Source: Haloplanus ruber (lineage in GTDB: Archaea; Halobacteriota; Halobacteria; Halobacteriales; Haloferacaceae). From it: a stretch of 64,000 nt of DNA. Below, piece after piece: positions 9,041 through 17,699 of the stretch. Below the pieces are notes generated by a model. The model was not told the DNA's origin, did no database searches, and worked only from the letters and a program-made list of their open reading frames with translations. Position numbers and translations under genes: made by a program. Location: the NCBI RefSeq assembly GCF_024494725.1, contig NZ_JANHDK010000001.1:1178001-1242000 (forward strand), given 5' to 3'. Numbering within the stretch: position 1 is the first letter of the stretch; each line of letters starts with the position of its first letter.

Positions 9041-9955
9041 ATGCCGAACTCAGCGCCGAGTCCGGGGACGGCCGATCCGCTCGACCTCGACGGTGTCGTT
9101 CCGCCGACGGTGACGGCCTTCGACGAGTCCGGGGCCGTCGACCACGACGCGACCGCCGCACACGCACAGTTCGTCGTCGACGGGGGGGCCAGCGCGGTCT
9201 TTCCGCTGGGGACGAACGGCGAGTTCCCGCTCCTGACCGGCGACGAGCGCCGGGCCGTCGTCGAGACGGTGGTCGACGCCGTCGACGTCCCGGTCATCGC
9301 GGGCGTGGGGACCGAGAGCACGCGCGAGACGGTCGCCAACGCCGAACACGCGGCGGCGGCCGGCGCCGACGGCGTCGTCGTCGTCACGCCGTACTACTAC
9401 CCGCTGGACGGCGACGCCGCGGTCGCCCACTACCGGGCGGTCGCCGACGCCGTCGGCGTCCCGGTGTACGTCTATCACATCCCGAGCAAGACGGGGAACG
9501 AACTGTCGCTTGCGACCCTCGACCGTCTCGCCGCCGTCGACGGGGTCGCCGGTGTCAAAGACTCCTCGAAGGACGTTCCCTGGCTCGGACAGGCCGTCGA
9601 CGCCCATCCCGAGTTGACCTTCCTCGCGGGGTCGGATTCGCTGTTGTTCACGGGGCTGGCGGCCGGCTGTGCCGGGCTGGTGAGCGCCGTCGCCAACGCC
9701 TTCCCGGAACTCGTCGTCGACCTATACGACGCCTACGACGCCGGCGACGAGGCGGAGGCGCGGCGCCTCCAGTCGCGGGTCTTTGCCGTCCGGTCGGCGT
9801 TGAAACGCGGCCCCTACATGGCCGGGGTGAAGACCGCGCTGTCGCTACGGGACCTCTCCTTCGACGCCGGCGGCCTCCGGGCGCCGCTCCGGACGATGGA
9901 CGACGACGAACGGGCAGCCCTGCGGTCGGAGCTTCGCGAACTCGGGATGCTGTAG
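9041..9955 (+). CDS. kdgA: 2-keto-3-deoxy-(6-phospho)gluconate aldolase, DapA superfamily
   Basis: A 304-residue class I aldolase of the dihydrodipicolinate synthase superfamily. Hallmarks are LGTNGEFPLLTGDER, the active-site Tyr region YVYHIPSKTG and the Schiff-base Lys173 in GVKDSSKD. In haloarchaea this family cleaves KDPG to pyruvate and glyceraldehyde 3-phosphate. The assignment to sugar acids rather than lysine synthesis rests on its neighbours, kdgK immediately downstream and gdh nearby. A T-rich TATA-like TCTTTTTCACC about 30 bases before the ATG suggests its own leaderless transcript. A second, more distant DapA-family aldolase lies at 35258-36154. Confidence 0.87.
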   Translation: MPNSAPSPGTADPLDLDGVVPPTVTAFDESGAVDHDATAAHAQFVVDGGASAVFPLGTNGEFPLLTGDERRAVVETVVDAVDVPVIAGVGTESTRETVANAEHAAAAGADGVVVVTPYYYPLDGDAAVAHYRAVADAVGVPVYVYHIPSKTGNELSLATLDRLAAVDGVAGVKDSSKDVPWLGQAVDAHPELTFLAGSDSLLFTGLAAGCAGLVSAVANAFPELVVDLYDAYDAGDEAEARRLQSRVFAVRSALKRGPYMAGVKTALSLRDLSFDAGGLRAPLRTMDDDERAALRSELRELGML

Positions 9956-10006
9956 GCCGCCCGCGGAACCACCGGTATTAACCGCCACAGGGCTTTGGAA
10001 CCGAGT

Positions 10007-10963
10007 ATGTCGGAACTCGTCACGTTCGGTGAAACGATGCTGCGCCTCACGCCACCCCGGGGCCACCGCCTCTCGCGTGTCGACCGCCTCGACGTCCACG
10101 TCGGTGGCGCCGAGAGCAACGTCGCCGTGGGGGCTGCGAACCTCGGTGTCGACGCGGCGTGGGCGTCGCTGTTGCCCGCAACCGACCTGGGCGAACGGAT
10201 CGCCTACGCGCTCCGCGGGGAGGGGGTCGAACCGCTGGTCACGTGGACAGAGATGGGCCGCGTCGGGACGTACTACTTCGAGCGCGGGGGGATGCCCCGC
10301 GGCCGCGACGTGATCTACGACCGCGAGGGGGCGCCGATCAGGGACGCCACACCCGCCGACGCACCGCTCGACCGGGTTCGCGACGCCGAGGTGTTCTTTA
10401 CCACCGGCATCACGCCGGCACTGTCAGAGAAGGTGGCCGAGACAACCGGGACCCTCCTCGAGACGGCCCGCGACGCCGGCGTCCGGACGGCCTTCGACGT
10501 CAACTACCGAGAGAAGCTCTGGTCGCCCGCGGCGGCCCGAACGACGCTCACCAACCTGTTGCCGTCGGTCGACGTTCTGTTCGTCGCCGAACGGGACGCC
10601 CGCGAGGTGCTCGCGCTCGACGGCGACGCCGAGCGGATGGCTCGCGACCTGACCGCCGAGTACGGCTTCGAAACGGTTGTCGTCACGCTCGGCGAGGAGG
10701 GCGCCCTCGCCTTACACGACGGGTCGGTCACCCGGCAGGAGACGTTCCCGGCCGACACCGTCGATCCGCTCGGGTCGGGCGATGCCTTCGCCAGCGGCTT
10801 CCTCGCCGAGCGCATGGACGGCGCGCCCGTCGAGGATGCGCTTGCCTACGGCGCGGCGACCGCCGCCCTGAAGCGAACCGTCGAGGGCGATATGGCCCGC
10901 GTCTCCCCGGACGAGGTTCGCGCCCTCGTCGAGGACGGCGGCAAGACCGATATCGAGCGCTGA
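10007..10963 (+). CDS. kdgK: 2-keto-3-deoxygluconate kinase, PfkB family
   Basis: A 318-residue ribokinase/PfkB-family sugar kinase. The N-terminal signature GGAESNVAVGAANLG and the C-terminal signature DPLGSGDAFASGF, with the catalytic Asp in GSGD, are both intact. It phosphorylates KDG to KDPG, the step before the aldolase encoded just upstream. The start at 10007 (MSELVTFGET) is chosen over the frame start at 9995 because GTATTAACC, a TATA-like box, sits about 33 bases before it. The pair kdgA-kdgK supports the semi-phosphorylative pathway. Activity on 2-keto-3-deoxygalactonate is also possible. Confidence 0.9.
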   Translation: MSELVTFGETMLRLTPPRGHRLSRVDRLDVHVGGAESNVAVGAANLGVDAAWASLLPATDLGERIAYALRGEGVEPLVTWTEMGRVGTYYFERGGMPRGRDVIYDREGAPIRDATPADAPLDRVRDAEVFFTTGITPALSEKVAETTGTLLETARDAGVRTAFDVNYREKLWSPAAARTTLTNLLPSVDVLFVAERDAREVLALDGDAERMARDLTAEYGFETVVVTLGEEGALALHDGSVTRQETFPADTVDPLGSGDAFASGFLAERMDGAPVEDALAYGAATAALKRTVEGDMARVSPDEVRALVEDGGKTDIER

Positions 10964-11026: not shown

Positions 11027-12712
11027 ATGAATCACGCGAAAGGACCACTACTCAGCATCGATGTCGGAGCACGCGAGGCGTCGACGGTCGACGTCTCGAC
11101 GGAGCTGTCGTCGTTCATCGGGGGACGGGGACTCTGTACGAAGTTGGCACACGACCGGATCCCGTTCGATGCCGACCCGTTCGGTCCGGAGAACCGGATC
11201 TACTTCGCGAGCGGCCCGCTCCAGCAGTCGGGGATGTCGTTTACCGGGCGGATGAACTGCACGGGGCTGTCGCCGCTGACTGACGGCCTCCTGTCGACGA
11301 ACGCCGGCGGCTACCTCTCGCGAAACTTCGTCGAGACGGGGAACGCGGCCGTCGAAATCACGGGCGCGTCCGACGAACTCCTCGTCCTCCACGTGACCGA
11401 CGAGGGCGTCGAGTTCGTCGAGGCCCCGGAACTGGCGGGCGCGACGGTGCCCGAGGTGACCGCGTACGTGGACCGCGAACGGGGCCTCGACGCCGAAAAC
11501 ATCCTCTGCATCGGCCCCGCAGGCGAGAACCGCGTCCGGTTTGCCTGCGTGATGACCTACGAGAGTCGGGCCTTCGGCCGGGGTGGGATGGGGGCGATTC
11601 TCGGTGCCAAAAACGTCAAGGCAATCACCTTCGAGGGCGACAGCGAACCGGACGTATCCCTCCCGGAGGACGTCCAACAGGAGGTACACAGCGCCGCCGC
11701 CACCTCCGACGACCTGATGCGCCGGCAGGGGACAACCGGGGGCACGGAGTTCATCAACGACAACTTCGCGCTCCCGACGCGGTACTTCGAGAAGTATCAC
11801 TTCGAGGACGCCGACAAGATCGGTGGCGACGCCGTCGAGGAGAAGAAGTACAAGAAGGGGTCGTGCTCGATGTGTGCGTTCGCCTGCAAACTGCCGACCC
11901 GCGACGAGAAGACGGGTCTCGAGACGGAGGGGCCGGAGTTCGAGACGGTGTTCTCGTTCGGGAGCAACTGCGAGGTGGGCGACATCGTCGACGTGATGCA
12001 GTCGAACGAACTCTGTGACGTCTACGGGATGGACACCATCTCCTGTGGCAACGCCATCGCCGCCTATCTCGCGGCCGAGGACGAGTTCGGCAACGCCGAT
12101 CTGATCCACGAAACCATCGAGCAGATTGCCACCCGCGAGGGAGTCGGTGACCTGCTCGCCGAAGGAATCTCGCGCGCGGCCGACGAACTCGGCGTCCGCA
12201 ACTACACGGTCAAGGACATGGAGTTCGCCGCCCACGACGGCCGCGTCCTCTACGGGCAGGCGCTCAGCTACGCCGTCGCGAACCGCGGCGGCGACCACAT
12301 GTACTCCACCACGCTCCGCGTCGAGTACGACGGCGAGGTCGATCCCGAGACCCTAGAGGGCAAGCCGGAACTCGTGATGCGCCGCGAGAACCACGCCGCC
12401 TTCCGCGACTCGGGGATCGTCTGTGCCTTCGCCGGCGGCACCGGCCACGTGACTGAGGAGACCTTAGAGGCGCTGTTCGAGTGCGACTACGAGGAACTCC
12501 AGCGGATGGGCGCCAAGACGGTCGAACTGGAGCGACACTTCAACAACGAGCGCGGGATGGACCGCGCGGCCGACAGCCTCCCCTACGACATCCCGGGGAT
12601 GGAGGCGGCCATCGAGGAGTACTACTCGCTGCGTGGCTGGAATCCGGACGGCACCGTCTCCGACGACACCGTCGCCGAGTACGCCGCCACCCAGTCGTCG
12701 ACGGCCGACTAA
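11027..12712 (+). CDS. aor: Aldehyde:ferredoxin oxidoreductase family enzyme
   Basis: A 561-residue tungsten/molybdopterin enzyme that would oxidise aldehydes to acids with ferredoxin as acceptor. The N-terminal pterin-binding part has FIGGRGLCTKLAHD. The 4Fe-4S ligands are visible as CSMCAFAC (Cx2Cx3C, about residues 283-290) with the distant fourth Cys in SGIVCAF. The length is close to other AOR-family members. The ATG at 11027 is preferred to the TTG at 11021; GACTTTTTGCC lies about 30 bases upstream as a likely TATA element. It follows the kdgA-kdgK pair, so glyceraldehyde or another sugar-derived aldehyde is a possible substrate. Its stop shares bases with the stop of the convergent MoaD-like gene. 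Confidence 0.85.
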   Translation: MNHAKGPLLSIDVGAREASTVDVSTELSSFIGGRGLCTKLAHDRIPFDADPFGPENRIYFASGPLQQSGMSFTGRMNCTGLSPLTDGLLSTNAGGYLSRNFVETGNAAVEITGASDELLVLHVTDEGVEFVEAPELAGATVPEVTAYVDRERGLDAENILCIGPAGENRVRFACVMTYESRAFGRGGMGAILGAKNVKAITFEGDSEPDVSLPEDVQQEVHSAAATSDDLMRRQGTTGGTEFINDNFALPTRYFEKYHFEDADKIGGDAVEEKKYKKGSCSMCAFACKLPTRDEKTGLETEGPEFETVFSFGSNCEVGDIVDVMQSNELCDVYGMDTISCGNAIAAYLAAEDEFGNADLIHETIEQIATREGVGDLLAEGISRAADELGVRNYTVKDMEFAAHDGRVLYGQALSYAVANRGGDHMYSTTLRVEYDGEVDPETLEGKPELVMRRENHAAFRDSGIVCAFAGGTGHVTEETLEALFECDYEELQRMGAKTVELERHFNNERGMDRAADSLPYDIPGMEAAIEEYYSLRGWNPDGTVSDDTVAEYAATQSSTAD

Positions 12713-12996
12713 CGACCGCCGACGACCGGCGGTGCGAGCCGAATCACGGCGCCGTCCGAAAGGGTCGTCTCGTCGCCGTCCAGTTGGCGGACGTTTCGTC
12801 CGTCGACAGTTACTGTCGCCCGCCGGGACCCATCTTCTGTCCGCAGGTAGTCGTCCAAGCCGTCGAAGGCGTCACAGAGCGCGTCGAGAGCCGCGCCGAC
12901 GGTCGTCCCCGCCTCGAACGTGCGGGTGACGCGCTTTCGGCCGACGGCCTCCCGCAACGGACCGAAGAAGTCGAAGTGAACCTCCATCGTCGGCAC
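12709..12996 (-). CDS. MoaD/SAMP-like ubiquitin-fold protein ending in GGR
   Basis: A 95-residue beta-grasp protein (FFGPLREAVGRKRVTRTF, then VGAALDALCDAF) of the MoaD/ThiS/SAMP type. Archaeal SAMPs are conjugated to proteins or act as sulfur carriers through a C-terminal Gly-Gly. This one ends APPVVGGR, with one Arg after the diglycine, so it would need trimming or may act only in pterin cofactor synthesis. It lies convergent to the aor gene, whose product needs a molybdopterin-type cofactor, which fits a MoaD-like role. A second in-frame ATG at 12987 would remove three residues. Confidence 0.75.
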   Translation of the reverse strand: MPTMEVHFDFFGPLREAVGRKRVTRTFEAGTTVGAALDALCDAFDGLDDYLRTEDGSRRATVTVDGRNVRQLDGDETTLSDGAVIRLAPPVVGGR

Positions 12997-13069
12997 GACG
13001 CCCCGCGCAGTCTTGTAGGTGTCCCTCTCTCCCCCGGGAACTTTTGCCCGCCGAGCGCCCAGTCCGCCC

Positions 13070-13303
13070 GTGCGTGTCGACGTTCGATGTTACGGCGAGG
13101 TGGCGGCGGCGGTCGACGAGGGTGACGGCCCGCGTACTCTCGAAACCGGCGCGACGGTCGACGACCTGCTCGGAACCCTGGGGGCGACGGGGTCGTTCTC
13201 CGGTGGGTTGGTCGTGCTGGTAAACGGCGAGCACGCGGATCGGGACGCGGCACTCGCGGACGGGGACACCGTCGCGCTGTCGCAGTCCCCGATGCGGGAG
13301 TGA
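13070..13303 (+). CDS. Small MoaD/ThiS-like beta-grasp protein without diglycine tail
   Basis: A 77-residue protein with the ubiquitin-like pattern: VDVRCYGEVAAAV strand, acidic turn, TVDDLLGTLG helix, LVVLVNGEHADRDAALADGD, then a final strand and the tail SQSPMRE. It has no terminal Gly-Gly, so a conjugation or sulfur-carrier role is unlikely. A GTG at 13070 is chosen because the conserved strand begins there and ACTTTTGCC lies about 29 bases upstream; the frame start at 13019 would add a Pro-rich stretch. It is divergent from the MoaD/SAMP-like gene, which suggests that the two are functionally linked or derived from each other. The function is unknown. Confidence 0.62.
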   Translation: MRVDVRCYGEVAAAVDEGDGPRTLETGATVDDLLGTLGATGSFSGGLVVLVNGEHADRDAALADGDTVALSQSPMRE

Positions 13304-14416: not shown

Positions 14417-16078
14417 ATGGCCGTTCAGCGAAGTGACGACGCCCGCCTCAACGACCGGGACCGAAGCGACTGGACGATCCGCGACGAGGACGCCCGCGAG
14501 TACGTCCGGGGGGCCGTCGACGCGACGGTCGCCCTCGTCGAGTCGACGTACGGACCGGCAGGGATGGAGAAACTCGTCGATACGGCCGACCCGCAGAACC
14601 GCGCGGCTCTGCGCCGGATCGACGACGCCGGACGGCTCTTCGACGCCATCGAGAACGGCGACGGGTTCGGCCACCCGGTCGCGGCGCTGTTCGTCGACGG
14701 CGTCGACGGGATGCGGAGCCGCCTGCACGATGGGACCACGGCGTCGGTGCTCATCGCGGGCGCGCTGATGGACGAAGGGTTCGACCTCGTCGAGCGGGGA
14801 CTCGCACCCAGTGACGTCGTCGTCGGGTACGGCATCGCTCGCTCCCACGCCGGCGAGGTGCTCGACGGCCTCGCCCGCCCCGTCGACGCCGACGACGAGG
14901 TGATGCTCGCGAACGTCGCCGCGACGACGATGACGACGGCACTCGACCGGGACGTGCGGCGGGACCTGTCCGAACGCGTCGCCGCGACCGTCCGCCGTCT
15001 CGGTGACGCGGGCGACGACGACTGGATCAACACCGACCACGCGAAGGTGCTCGCGGCCCGTGGCGTCGAGACGAAAACGTACGACGGATTGGTGTTGTCC
15101 CGTCCGGCGGATGCCGACCCGAACGGACAGGGCGTCACCGCGCCGATCACGGACGCCAAGGTGGCGGTCGTCGACCGGGAGATCGACTTCGAGGAGACCG
15201 CGAGCGTCCTCGACGGTGGCGAGGGCGTTCACCTCTCCTCGCCGCAGGCGGCGACCCGCTACCGGACCGAACTGGAGGCCCGGATCGACGCCGCGGCCGA
15301 ACGCCTCGTCGAGGCGGGCGTCGACGTGCTCGTCGCACTGGAGAAACTCGACGCGTCGGTCGTCACGTCGTTCGAGCGGGCGGGTCTCGCAGTCGTAGAC
15401 AAGGCGACCTATCCAAAGGAGGACGTCTATCGGCTCGCGACGGCGACCGGGGGAACGGTCGTCTCGAACCTCGACGACCTGACGACGGATCACCTGGGAC
15501 GGGCCGACCGGGTCGTGGAGCGGCGGGCCGACGGCGAGGTCTGGACCGCCTTCGAGGGCTGTCCGGGGACCGTCAACACCATCGTCACCGGTGGGGCGAC
15601 CGAGGCGGAGGTACAACGGCGAGAGGCGGCAGTCACGGACGCACTCGAAACGGCCGCCACGGCCGCCATCGACGGCCAAGTATTGCCGGGGGCGGGCGCG
15701 CCGGCCGCGGCGGTCGCTGCCTCACTCCGCGAGGGCGCGACGACGGTGAGCGGCCGTGAGCAACTCGCCGTCCGTGCCTTCGCCGACGCCCTCGAACGGC
15801 TCCCGGCCGTGCTCGCTCGCAACGCCGGCTACGATCCCGTCACCGCCGTGACCGACCTGCGGGCGGCACACGCGTCCGGGCCGACGGCGACGGGCCTGAG
15901 CGCCGACACGGGCGAGCGGATCGACGCGTGGACAGCCGGAATCGTCGAACCACGGCGGGTGTTTTCTCAGGCCATCGAGACGGCGGCCGCCATCGTCGAG
16001 CAACTGCTCACCATCGACGCAGTGCTGTATCCGAACGTCGAACTGTACGGCTACACGCCGCGATCCGAACGCGAGTAG
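14417..16078 (+). CDS. Divergent group II chaperonin (TCP-1/Cpn60) paralogue A
   Basis: A 553-residue protein of the thermosome fold family. STYGPAGMEKLVD matches the conserved GP-GM-K region. The ATP-binding motif reads HDGTTASVL instead of GDGTT. The NDGATIL phosphate motif is replaced (RRIDDAGRLF), and the usual VPGGGA loop is LPGAGAPAA. The C-terminal region, ending in a conserved Glu-Pro segment GIVEPRRVFSQAIETAA, is chaperonin-like. It is therefore a paralogue of the main thermosome subunits with altered ATPase features. It faces paralogue B with about 43 bases between the stops. GAATTAATC about 30 bases before the ATG is a likely TATA box. Whether it assembles with itself, with B or with normal thermosomes is unknown. 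Confidence 0.8.
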   Translation: MAVQRSDDARLNDRDRSDWTIRDEDAREYVRGAVDATVALVESTYGPAGMEKLVDTADPQNRAALRRIDDAGRLFDAIENGDGFGHPVAALFVDGVDGMRSRLHDGTTASVLIAGALMDEGFDLVERGLAPSDVVVGYGIARSHAGEVLDGLARPVDADDEVMLANVAATTMTTALDRDVRRDLSERVAATVRRLGDAGDDDWINTDHAKVLAARGVETKTYDGLVLSRPADADPNGQGVTAPITDAKVAVVDREIDFEETASVLDGGEGVHLSSPQAATRYRTELEARIDAAAERLVEAGVDVLVALEKLDASVVTSFERAGLAVVDKATYPKEDVYRLATATGGTVVSNLDDLTTDHLGRADRVVERRADGEVWTAFEGCPGTVNTIVTGGATEAEVQRREAAVTDALETAATAAIDGQVLPGAGAPAAAVAASLREGATTVSGREQLAVRAFADALERLPAVLARNAGYDPVTAVTDLRAAHASGPTATGLSADTGERIDAWTAGIVEPRRVFSQAIETAAAIVEQLLTIDAVLYPNVELYGYTPRSERE

Positions 16079-16121
16079 CCGTCCGCCGCCGGTGTGCTCC
16101 GACGGCCGGCGACCACCGGAC

Positions 16122-17699
16122 TCAGGCCGCCTCTGTGTCGGCGTCGGACGCCTCGGGGGCCGGCTCTCGTTCCTCCTCGTCGCCGAGGTCGGTCGCGTCG
16201 AGTCGCTCGTCGATCCGTACTAGCTGGATCGCCGCCTCGGCGGCCGTCGTCAACACGGCGGCTTTCAGCGACGCGGGTTCGACGACCGGCGACTCGCCGA
16301 GGATGTCGCCGGTCGTCCCCCCGAGGACGTCGATGCCGACCGCGTCCCGCCCCTCGGCGCGGGCGACGCGCAGTCGGACCTCCGCTCGCCCGGCGTCCAC
16401 GCCGGCCGTGGCCGCGAGCGCCCGGGGGACGGCGAGCAGGGCGTTTCCGAACCCGTCGGCGGCGAGTTGGTGACGGCCGGCGAGCGATCTGGCAGCCCGG
16501 TCGACGGCTCGGGCGGCGGTGGCTTCGACGGCCCCGCCGCCGGGGACGATTCGTTCGTCGCGGGTCGCCGCGGCCGTCGCCGCGACAGCCGCCTCGACCG
16601 AACGCTCGAAGGCACCGACCGTCCGCGGGTCGGGCGCCCGACAGAACAGGGTGTGGGTCGGCTCGCCGGCCTCGGACGTGACGAACGTCATGTCCCGGCC
16701 GGCCTTGCGGCGGACGTCCACGTCGCCGGTGCCGAGCGTCGCCGCCGAGACCTGATCGAGCGTCGGGACGACCGTCGCGCCGGTCGCCCGTGCCACCCGG
16801 TCGGCCACGTCGGCGTCGACGCGGTTGATACCGAGAACTCCCGCCGCGGCGAGTGCCGATTCGACGCGTTCGTTGATCGCTCGCTCGGTGACGACGACAC
16901 CACAGCCGGCGTCGACCGCCGCCTGTAACTGTGCGGCGAACGCATCGGACTCGTGTTCGCGGAGCGCCTCGCGGTCCGCAAAGGAGTTGGCGTCGAGCGT
17001 GACGCGGCGGCTGACCCGACCGAGTTGGCTCCCCGCGTGGGGGACGTCGACCGTCGAGGAGAGGACGGCAATCCCCGTCTCGCCTTTCGACCGGGGCATG
17101 GATTCGAGCACCGGTCCCCGCTGGATCACGACCCCCGGAACGAGATTCGTCTCGGCTGTCGCACCGCCGGCCCGGGAGACGACCTGGATGCGTTCGCGGG
17201 CGTCGGGACCGGCCTCGGCGACGGCGTCGGCAATCTGTGCCGCGACGGATCGGCGGACCTGTGGGTTCCGGGTCGCCGTGAGAGTGGTCCGGGCGACGGC
17301 GGCCGGTCCGTACTCCGAGAGTGGACGGGCCGCGCCGTCGACGGCGTCGAGTGCGACGTCGAGTCCCTCGCGAAACCCCCGTTCTATCGCGGTCGGGTGA
17401 AGGCCACGCTCGGCGAGGCGGTCTGCCTCGCGGAGGAGGGCACCAACCAGCGTCACGACAGTCCCGGTGCCGTCCCCGTACACATCGTGGAAGTCCGAGG
17501 CAGCCGTATCGAGGAGTGTGACCGCCGGATCGGACACGTCGAGCCGGTCGAGTAGCTCTGCCGACGAGGCGGTCGCCGTCACGGTGCCGTCCCGCTGTAT
17601 CAGCAGTTTGTTCGCCCCGAACGGACCGAGAGCGGTTTCGACGACGTCACAGACGGTGCGGACGCCGGTGACCAGCTCCTCGTTGACCATGCACGCCAT
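16122..17699 (-). CDS. Divergent group II chaperonin (TCP-1/Cpn60) paralogue B
   Basis: A 525-residue chaperonin-fold protein. LGPFGANKLLI corresponds to the conserved LGP-GM-K region. The ATP motif reads GDGTGTVV, with Gly for the second Thr, and the NDGATIL motif is replaced by ATASSAELL. The VPGGGAVEA loop is retained, unlike in paralogue A. The tail is acidic and disordered. The start at 17699 (MACMVNEEL) has CATTATTC about 25 bases upstream; an ATG three codons later is also possible. A and B are more similar to each other in layout than either is to a canonical thermosome subunit, and their altered motifs are complementary, so a mixed complex is a reasonable hypothesis. Confidence 0.8.
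   Translation of the reverse strand: MACMVNEELVTGVRTVCDVVETALGPFGANKLLIQRDGTVTATASSAELLDRLDVSDPAVTLLDTAASDFHDVYGDGTGTVVTLVGALLREADRLAERGLHPTAIERGFREGLDVALDAVDGAARPLSEYGPAAVARTTLTATRNPQVRRSVAAQIADAVAEAGPDARERIQVVSRAGGATAETNLVPGVVIQRGPVLESMPRSKGETGIAVLSSTVDVPHAGSQLGRVSRRVTLDANSFADREALREHESDAFAAQLQAAVDAGCGVVVTERAINERVESALAAAGVLGINRVDADVADRVARATGATVVPTLDQVSAATLGTGDVDVRRKAGRDMTFVTSEAGEPTHTLFCRAPDPRTVGAFERSVEAAVAATAAATRDERIVPGGGAVEATAARAVDRAARSLAGRHQLAADGFGNALLAVPRALAATAGVDAGRAEVRLRVARAEGRDAVGIDVLGGTTGDILGESPVVEPASLKAAVLTTAAEAAIQLVRIDERLDATDLGDEEEREPAPEASDADTEAA

Follow-up and report, generated by a model that had tools for sequence, protein, structure and literature searches.

An AOR-linked MoaD/SAMP1-type protein with an arginine after its diglycine and a divergent MoaD-fold neighbour lacking the diglycine in a haloarchaeal genome

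Which role can a pair of ubiquitin-like (Ubl) genes have when neither encodes the free C-terminal Gly-Gly (GG) through which Ubl proteins are thought to act? The question is raised by two small divergent genes in the analysed window, a stretch of 64,000 nucleotides (positions 1178001-1242000 of contig C1) of a haloarchaeal genome (G000). The first gene, P1 (12709..12987, minus strand), encodes a Ubl protein of the MoaD/SAMP1 type linked to aldehyde ferredoxin oxidoreductase (AOR), with 92 aa and the tail PPVVGGR. It runs from an ATG at 12987, with an alternative in-frame GTG at 12996, to the end APPVVGGR and a TAG stop at 12711-12709, and as encoded it has no C-terminal GG, which stands one residue inside. 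The second gene, P2 (13070..13303, plus strand), encodes a GG-less MoaD-fold protein of 77 aa with the tail SPMRE, starting with a GTG at 13070 (a longer in-frame GTG lies at 13019) and ending in LSQSPMRE before a stop that closes at 13303. The gap of 82 bp between the divergent starts (12988..13069) is presumed to be a shared promoter region. Both small genes and their encoded tails were confirmed, and the first-pass annotation had thus correctly described a divergent Ubl pair of which one member ends in GGR and the other has no diglycine.

The gene lying tail to tail with P1 (11030..12712, plus strand) overlaps it by 4 nt at the 3' ends and can be assigned by its sequence to the tungsten AOR family. 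Its product matched both Pfam domains (AFOR_N with 202.2 bits, AFOR_C with 269.3 bits), and the cluster cysteines C287, C290, C294 and C494 (alignment numbering) were invariant with three bacterial AORs. Upstream of AOR, genes for a DHDPS-family aldolase and a PfkB-family kinase were found (window 9041-10963), possibly belonging to a keto-deoxy sugar acid pathway; dihydrodipicolinate synthase family genes lie near AOR on Haladaptatus plasmids, too. The window also holds two convergent TCP-1/cpn60 chaperonin-family genes (14417-17699), each of which has about 30% identity with the relatives' counterparts of the other.

P1 belongs to a known kind of protein, and its tail is specific to its lineage. 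It passed the Pfam ThiS model (PF02597) with 43.7 bits (cut-off 22.5) and the NCBIfam SAMP1 model with 67.4 bits (cut-off 60), and narrowly missed the archaeal moaD model TIGR01687 (46.2 versus 49.5). The best PDB sequence match was 2m19 (HVO 2177; E 1.7e-11) and the AF2 model reached a pLDDT of 90.9, so that a beta-grasp fold is predicted from the matches to solved SAMP1/MoaD chains and from the model. A DNA comparison of the 3' ends with the nearest orthologue (L056) identified the Arg codon CGT before the stop TAG (together 12709..12714, minus strand) as a clean in-frame insertion of 3 nt that keeps the overlap of P1 and AOR. Since the five closest orthologues (L056-L060) end in bare GG, the Arg is a change of a single lineage among the genomes read. 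The same five orthologues ruled out the Arg as a conserved maturation signal; the first-pass annotation had itself named orthologues ending in GG as a refutation. A scan of genome contigs for close relatives, with P1 as query, gave no match. The ratio pN/pS was 0.06-0.55 over 15 P1 pairs, with 0.27-0.42 against the five orthologues, and as it stayed below 1 in every P1 and P2 pair compared, both genes look to be under purifying selection.

Across haloarchaea, 73 AOR loci were read, of which 35 have P1 near AOR and 38 do not; it must be noted that the Ubl models used at AOR loci were built partly from those loci's own sequences and that such matches arise by construction. The tail is GG in 28 of these 35 P1 genes, and the other seven continue beyond it (GGR here, GGAR, GGGR, GGRE, GGGG, GGENR and one long extension). 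As no P1 gene read in another genome has the exact GGR end, the Arg codon might be suspected to be an error of sequencing or assembly, but the probability of this is close to negligible: the difference is a clean in-frame one of 3 nt that leaves both reading frames intact, GGR is also the end of a second Ubl in this genome, and P1 proteins of other genera end in GGAR, GGGR and GGRE, the last of which recurs on a plasmid of Halomarina sp. BND7. Another possibility is that the Arg blocks P1 and marks the onset of its decay, AOR being served by other SAMPs. The bare GG of the five closest orthologues and the many AOR loci lacking a P1 nearby would agree with this, whereas the otherwise intact P1, its pN/pS against these orthologues and the frequent residues after GG in other Ubl families of the genus speak against it and make it improbable.

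The linkage of MoaD to AOR was already known (Iyer 2006; Makarova & Koonin 2010), and it was read as tungsten cofactor synthesis by Iyer 2006 (PMC1779556). At 80 AOR loci outside haloarchaea, which are the best 80 of at least 586 relatives, have record titles naming no haloarchaeon and do not include Aromatoleum, a MoaD-like protein was present at 65 within the stretch covered, which spans up to 5 kb on either side of AOR; among the 67 MoaD-like proteins of these best 80 loci, 62 end in GG and five carry more residues. Instead of carrying sulfur, P1 might mainly modify proteins by sampylation, with AOR as one possible target. It passed the SAMP1 model, and SAMP1 both modifies proteins and acts in Moco synthesis (PMC4443979); however, the linked gene encodes a pterin-type enzyme, and with the published reading of AOR-linked MoaD this leaves the modifier role rather unlikely.

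P2 is a more distant member of the family. It passed the Pfam ThiS model PF02597 with 35.1 bits (cut-off 22.5) and missed the NCBIfam SAMP1 and moaD models by a wide margin, and a comparison of its sequence with solved structures gave nothing meaningful. Its AF2 model (mean pLDDT 87) found Haloferax SAMP1 (3po0) as best Foldseek match (E 7.6e-5, TMq 0.71), with MoaD chains also leading, which predicts a ThiS/MoaD family member by fold. When aligned by eye, the terminal RE of P2 falls on the GG of P1, and since the chain ends there, P2 should not be activatable. A GG tail is missing from all 24 distinct P2-type sequences, two of which end in PEG. In 15 of 16 P2 proteins adjacent to AOR, the tail holds P-[MV] (SPMRE, APMRE, SPVRD, SPMRD, PPMPEG, SPMPEG, PPMVED or NPVGRE); the exception is L072 with the tail TIDE, which the P2 of Haladaptatus caseinilyticus shares. 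Over 17 sequences including L210, the mean majority identity was 0.72 in the last six P2 columns versus 0.58 elsewhere. Judged from these alignments, the P2 tail is a conserved alternative and more than an absence of GG, and this end hints at a helper role that has not been described. The notion of the first-pass annotation that P2 had simply lost the motif did not survive, as P2 proteins form a separate GG-less clade that mostly has its own P-[MV] tail. The absent GG could also mark a decaying MoaD gene, which is very improbable given a pN/pS of 0.33-0.78 over 21 pairs (0.44 versus the nearest orthologue) and a tail and position that are conserved at loci of four families; on these grounds, a pseudogene was ruled out.

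In a tree, the 24 P2-type rows formed one clade against 65 GG-type rows (support 100/99), of which L051 and L037 (labelled as without AOR) and five rows labelled as other duplicate AOR-linked loci. P2 lies near AOR in 13 of the 73 haloarchaeal AOR loci, and three more such loci from three further families came from 12 loci fetched for matches to the P2 profile, which makes a total of 16 loci in four haloarchaeal families. The order and orientation AOR> <P1 P2> is kept in 12 of the 16. Spacing varies: AOR and P1 are about 0.7 kb apart in L063, which has the standard order, and P1 and P2 about 0.9 kb apart in L075; the arrangement is changed in L064 and L073, and L061 (G024) retains AOR and P2, with P1 absent from the 12 kb covered. 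Named records agree, namely plasmids of Haladaptatus sp. QDMS2 (the same place as G388) and Haladaptatus caseinilyticus, and on the Halomarina sp. BND7 plasmid P1 (tail GGRE) and P2 (tail PPMPEG) are separated by another gene. No P2 was found at the 60 other haloarchaeal AOR loci (L118-L177; read for about 3 kb to either side of AOR, with three ending early at contig ends), nor within 3 kb of AOR in the incomplete gene tables of Haladaptatus salinisoli, Haladaptatus halobius and Halostagnicola larsenii, which list AOR and P1. Likewise, the best 80 of at least 586 AOR relatives outside haloarchaea yielded no P2-like protein, and for every Ubl there the GG-type model scored at least as high as the P2 model. 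A weak P2 match was seen in G037 (E 5e-4). With orthologues of both genes beside AOR elsewhere, pN/pS below 1 and the MoaD-like fold of P2, the pair goes beyond chance, and the first-pass suggestion that the two are a local MoaD-like pair linked to the adjacent pterin-type enzyme is supported.

P2 might nevertheless function independently of AOR and owe its place to an inherited neighbourhood. Eight P2-like loci (L065-L071 and L210) lack an AOR within the stretch that was read, and for three of them the genome as a whole gave no AOR at E 1e-30 (G063, G075 and G084), and P2 is kept without a nearby P1 in G024. Seven of the eight (L065-L071) come from seven genomes of two other genera (g8 and g25); by eye, no enzyme is common to all their neighbourhoods, and a gene seen by eye near P2 in L066, L067, L069, L070 and L071 is one that we take to be MATE-type transporter-like. 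These seven, however, form a separate subclade within P2 with different tails such as SERSAEE. The P-[MV] tail is missing from seven of the eight loci without AOR, so that it occurs in 15/16 AOR-adjacent versus 1/8 other P2 proteins (Fisher p 1.8e-4, calculated from related and not independent rows with H. caseinilyticus excluded), and the trio of AOR, P1 and P2 recurs in four families. A function apart from AOR thus appears unlikely, though it is the strongest of the alternatives. The trio seems to travel as a unit. In an AOR tree of 81 rows built by a quick method, the 16 P2-linked AORs needed three label changes, where shuffling gave a mean of 14.8. AORs of the families f3, f8 and f9 grouped there with those of f1, which suggests a transfer of the module. 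Flanking genes are seldom shared: of the 15 other P2 loci, L056 alone has all five genes that flank the trio in the window near its P2, L061 has four of them, and the other 13 contained just a distant aldolase match in L204. As far as the searches go, the P2 clade is an undescribed GG-less variant. The sections covered of the literature on SAMP precursors, AOR with MoaD, C-terminal extension and SAMP3 describe no GG-less AOR-linked MoaD, and the main text of a 2026 classification of tungsten oxidoreductases mentions neither MoaD nor ubiquitin, Halobacteria or haloarchaea.

If the GG of P1 is to be activated, its C-terminus would need trimming, as the first-pass annotation had recognised, and candidate proteins for this step are encoded elsewhere in the genome. 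The peptidase search it had proposed found two JAB-domain proteins above the cut-off (L106 1456-1899 and L107 1444-2004), and by eye, the metal motif HxHx7SxxD is complete in both; one E1 above the cut-off and one MoaE were also present. HvJAMM1 is reported to cleave a fusion of SAMP1 and MoaE precisely behind the final Gly (PMC4443979), and CsJAMM to cleave SAMP precursors (PMC6043591). By analogy with these reports, the two JAMM-motif proteins make a trimming of Ubls plausible here.

The Arg of P1 is not an isolated case in this genome, where four GG-type Ubls were found and none of them has a bare GG end: P1 (GGR), a SAMP-type protein (L001, GGR), a SAMP3-like protein (L002, GGA) and a SAMP2 that is fused in frame, after GG, to a GNAT acetyltransferase domain (L215 1501-2085; G000:C2, near 188248). 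Because the ThiS search of the own genome missed P2, a P1 profile, a P2 profile and a SAMP2 model were added, and these searches are not exhaustive. The SAMP2-GNAT fusion occurs in 12/12 genomes of the genus (with Pfam confirmation of GNAT in the own genome only); the parts of the literature covered contain no description of it, and SAMP2-family and GNAT genes are known as adjacent (PMC2948915). In 10 of the 12 genomes, the L002 type (orthologues L254-L264) has one extra Ala or Thr after GG, and its stop overlaps an ATG (ATGA), also in the two genomes with bare GG. The L001 type carries between one and five additional residues in 11 of the 12, and P1 is extended in two of the seven genus genomes where it was read; further Ubl matches in G046 and G111 are left out of this tally. 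Five genomes (the own one, G024, G074, G096 and G101) contain no bare-GG member of these four kinds, a count that leaves out one further match each in G024 and G074 and may miss other kinds everywhere. Outside the genus, 12 of 17 SAMP2 matches end in GG, one is fused, three are extended (by 2, 6 and 17 residues) and one is partial. Going by the encoded ends, this genus habitually has residues beyond GG in its Ubls. A Ubl related to the L002 type extends 102-143 residues past GG in seven genomes from two other genera (L038, L042, L048, L049, L050, L053 and L054). The own genome further encodes a Ubl-like protein with a CC end (L004, G000:C1:1264841-1265110, minus strand), which fits by sequence the CC family of haloarchaeal Ubl-like proteins named in PMC2948915.

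From the genes, predicted folds, recurring module and tail conservation computed here, together with the one E1, the one MoaE and the two JAMM-motif proteins, it appears somewhat more probable than its opposite that P1 is an AOR-dedicated sulfur carrier in need of trimming and P2 a non-activatable partner in AOR maturation. P1 would be made as a one-residue precursor of a MoaD/SAMP1-type sulfur carrier for AOR, and its Arg would be removed proteolytically, most likely by one of the two JAMM-motif proteins. The exposed Gly would then be adenylated by the single, UbaA-like E1 and loaded with sulfur, as expected from the family, and the resulting thiocarboxylate would serve the single MoaE in forming the pterin dithiolene from which the neighbouring AOR obtains its tungsten or molybdenum cofactor. 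P2 would most likely be a non-catalytic partner in the insertion of the AOR cofactor or in its control, with the P-M-x-E tail as a putative docking peptide. Considerably more tentative is a wider version: the GG-less P2 clade would be a MoaD paralogue turned non-activatable partner and paired with a true carrier, whose P-M-x-E/D tail docks on AOR or on the pterin machinery and steers or gates cofactor insertion, and in up to five of the 12 genus genomes, every GG-type Ubl would be encoded as a precursor, with one protease step gating all Ubl functions.

A conserved GG-less clade with the MoaD fold, mostly beside one enzyme family, offers a testable case for the reuse of a fold without its chemistry. 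The most useful by-product is that Ubls with residues encoded beyond GG occur throughout the genus. Where most GG-type Ubls of a genus are extended or fused, a JAMM-type protease would gate sulfur transfer together with protein modification, and the extended Ubls are a natural comparison with eukaryotic ubiquitin precursors. These precursors, like QbsE, have residues after GG that can be removed by a JAMM protease.

Among known systems, P1 fits the MoaD/SAMP1-type genes that lie beside AOR (Iyer 2006; Makarova & Koonin 2010; Thermococcus TK1065 UblC) and differs from them by the residue after GG and by the divergent GG-less MoaD-fold gene. In Thermococcus, ublB without its last two Gly did not restore growth that needs a tungsten cofactor enzyme (PMC11323500). 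The aor operon of Aromatoleum likewise holds two MoaD-like genes for putative maturation factors, aorD and aorE (PMC6365974), which are bacterial genes of the same operon, unlike the divergent P1 and P2. Their co-expression raised the activity of recombinant AOR from 4.5 to 16 U/mg, and to 85 with tungstate, and without added tungstate the tungsten content was 0.39 with aorDE versus 1.06 without (PMC9295118). By these published values, the gain in activity is not simply due to more tungsten, since the content was lower with aorDE when no tungstate was added. With SAMP1/SAMP3, UbaA and HvJAMM1 of Haloferax, the present system shares the family model (for P1), the MoaD-like fold, the E1 and the JAMM-motif proteins. 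Unlike in Haloferax, the Ubls of this genus are mostly encoded with residues after GG and SAMP2 is fused to GNAT. Residues after GG are also found in the CsUb and CsSAMP precursors of Caldiarchaeum, which are cut by CsRpn11 and CsJAMM; there, processing of the precursors was demonstrated, whereas for this genome we infer it.
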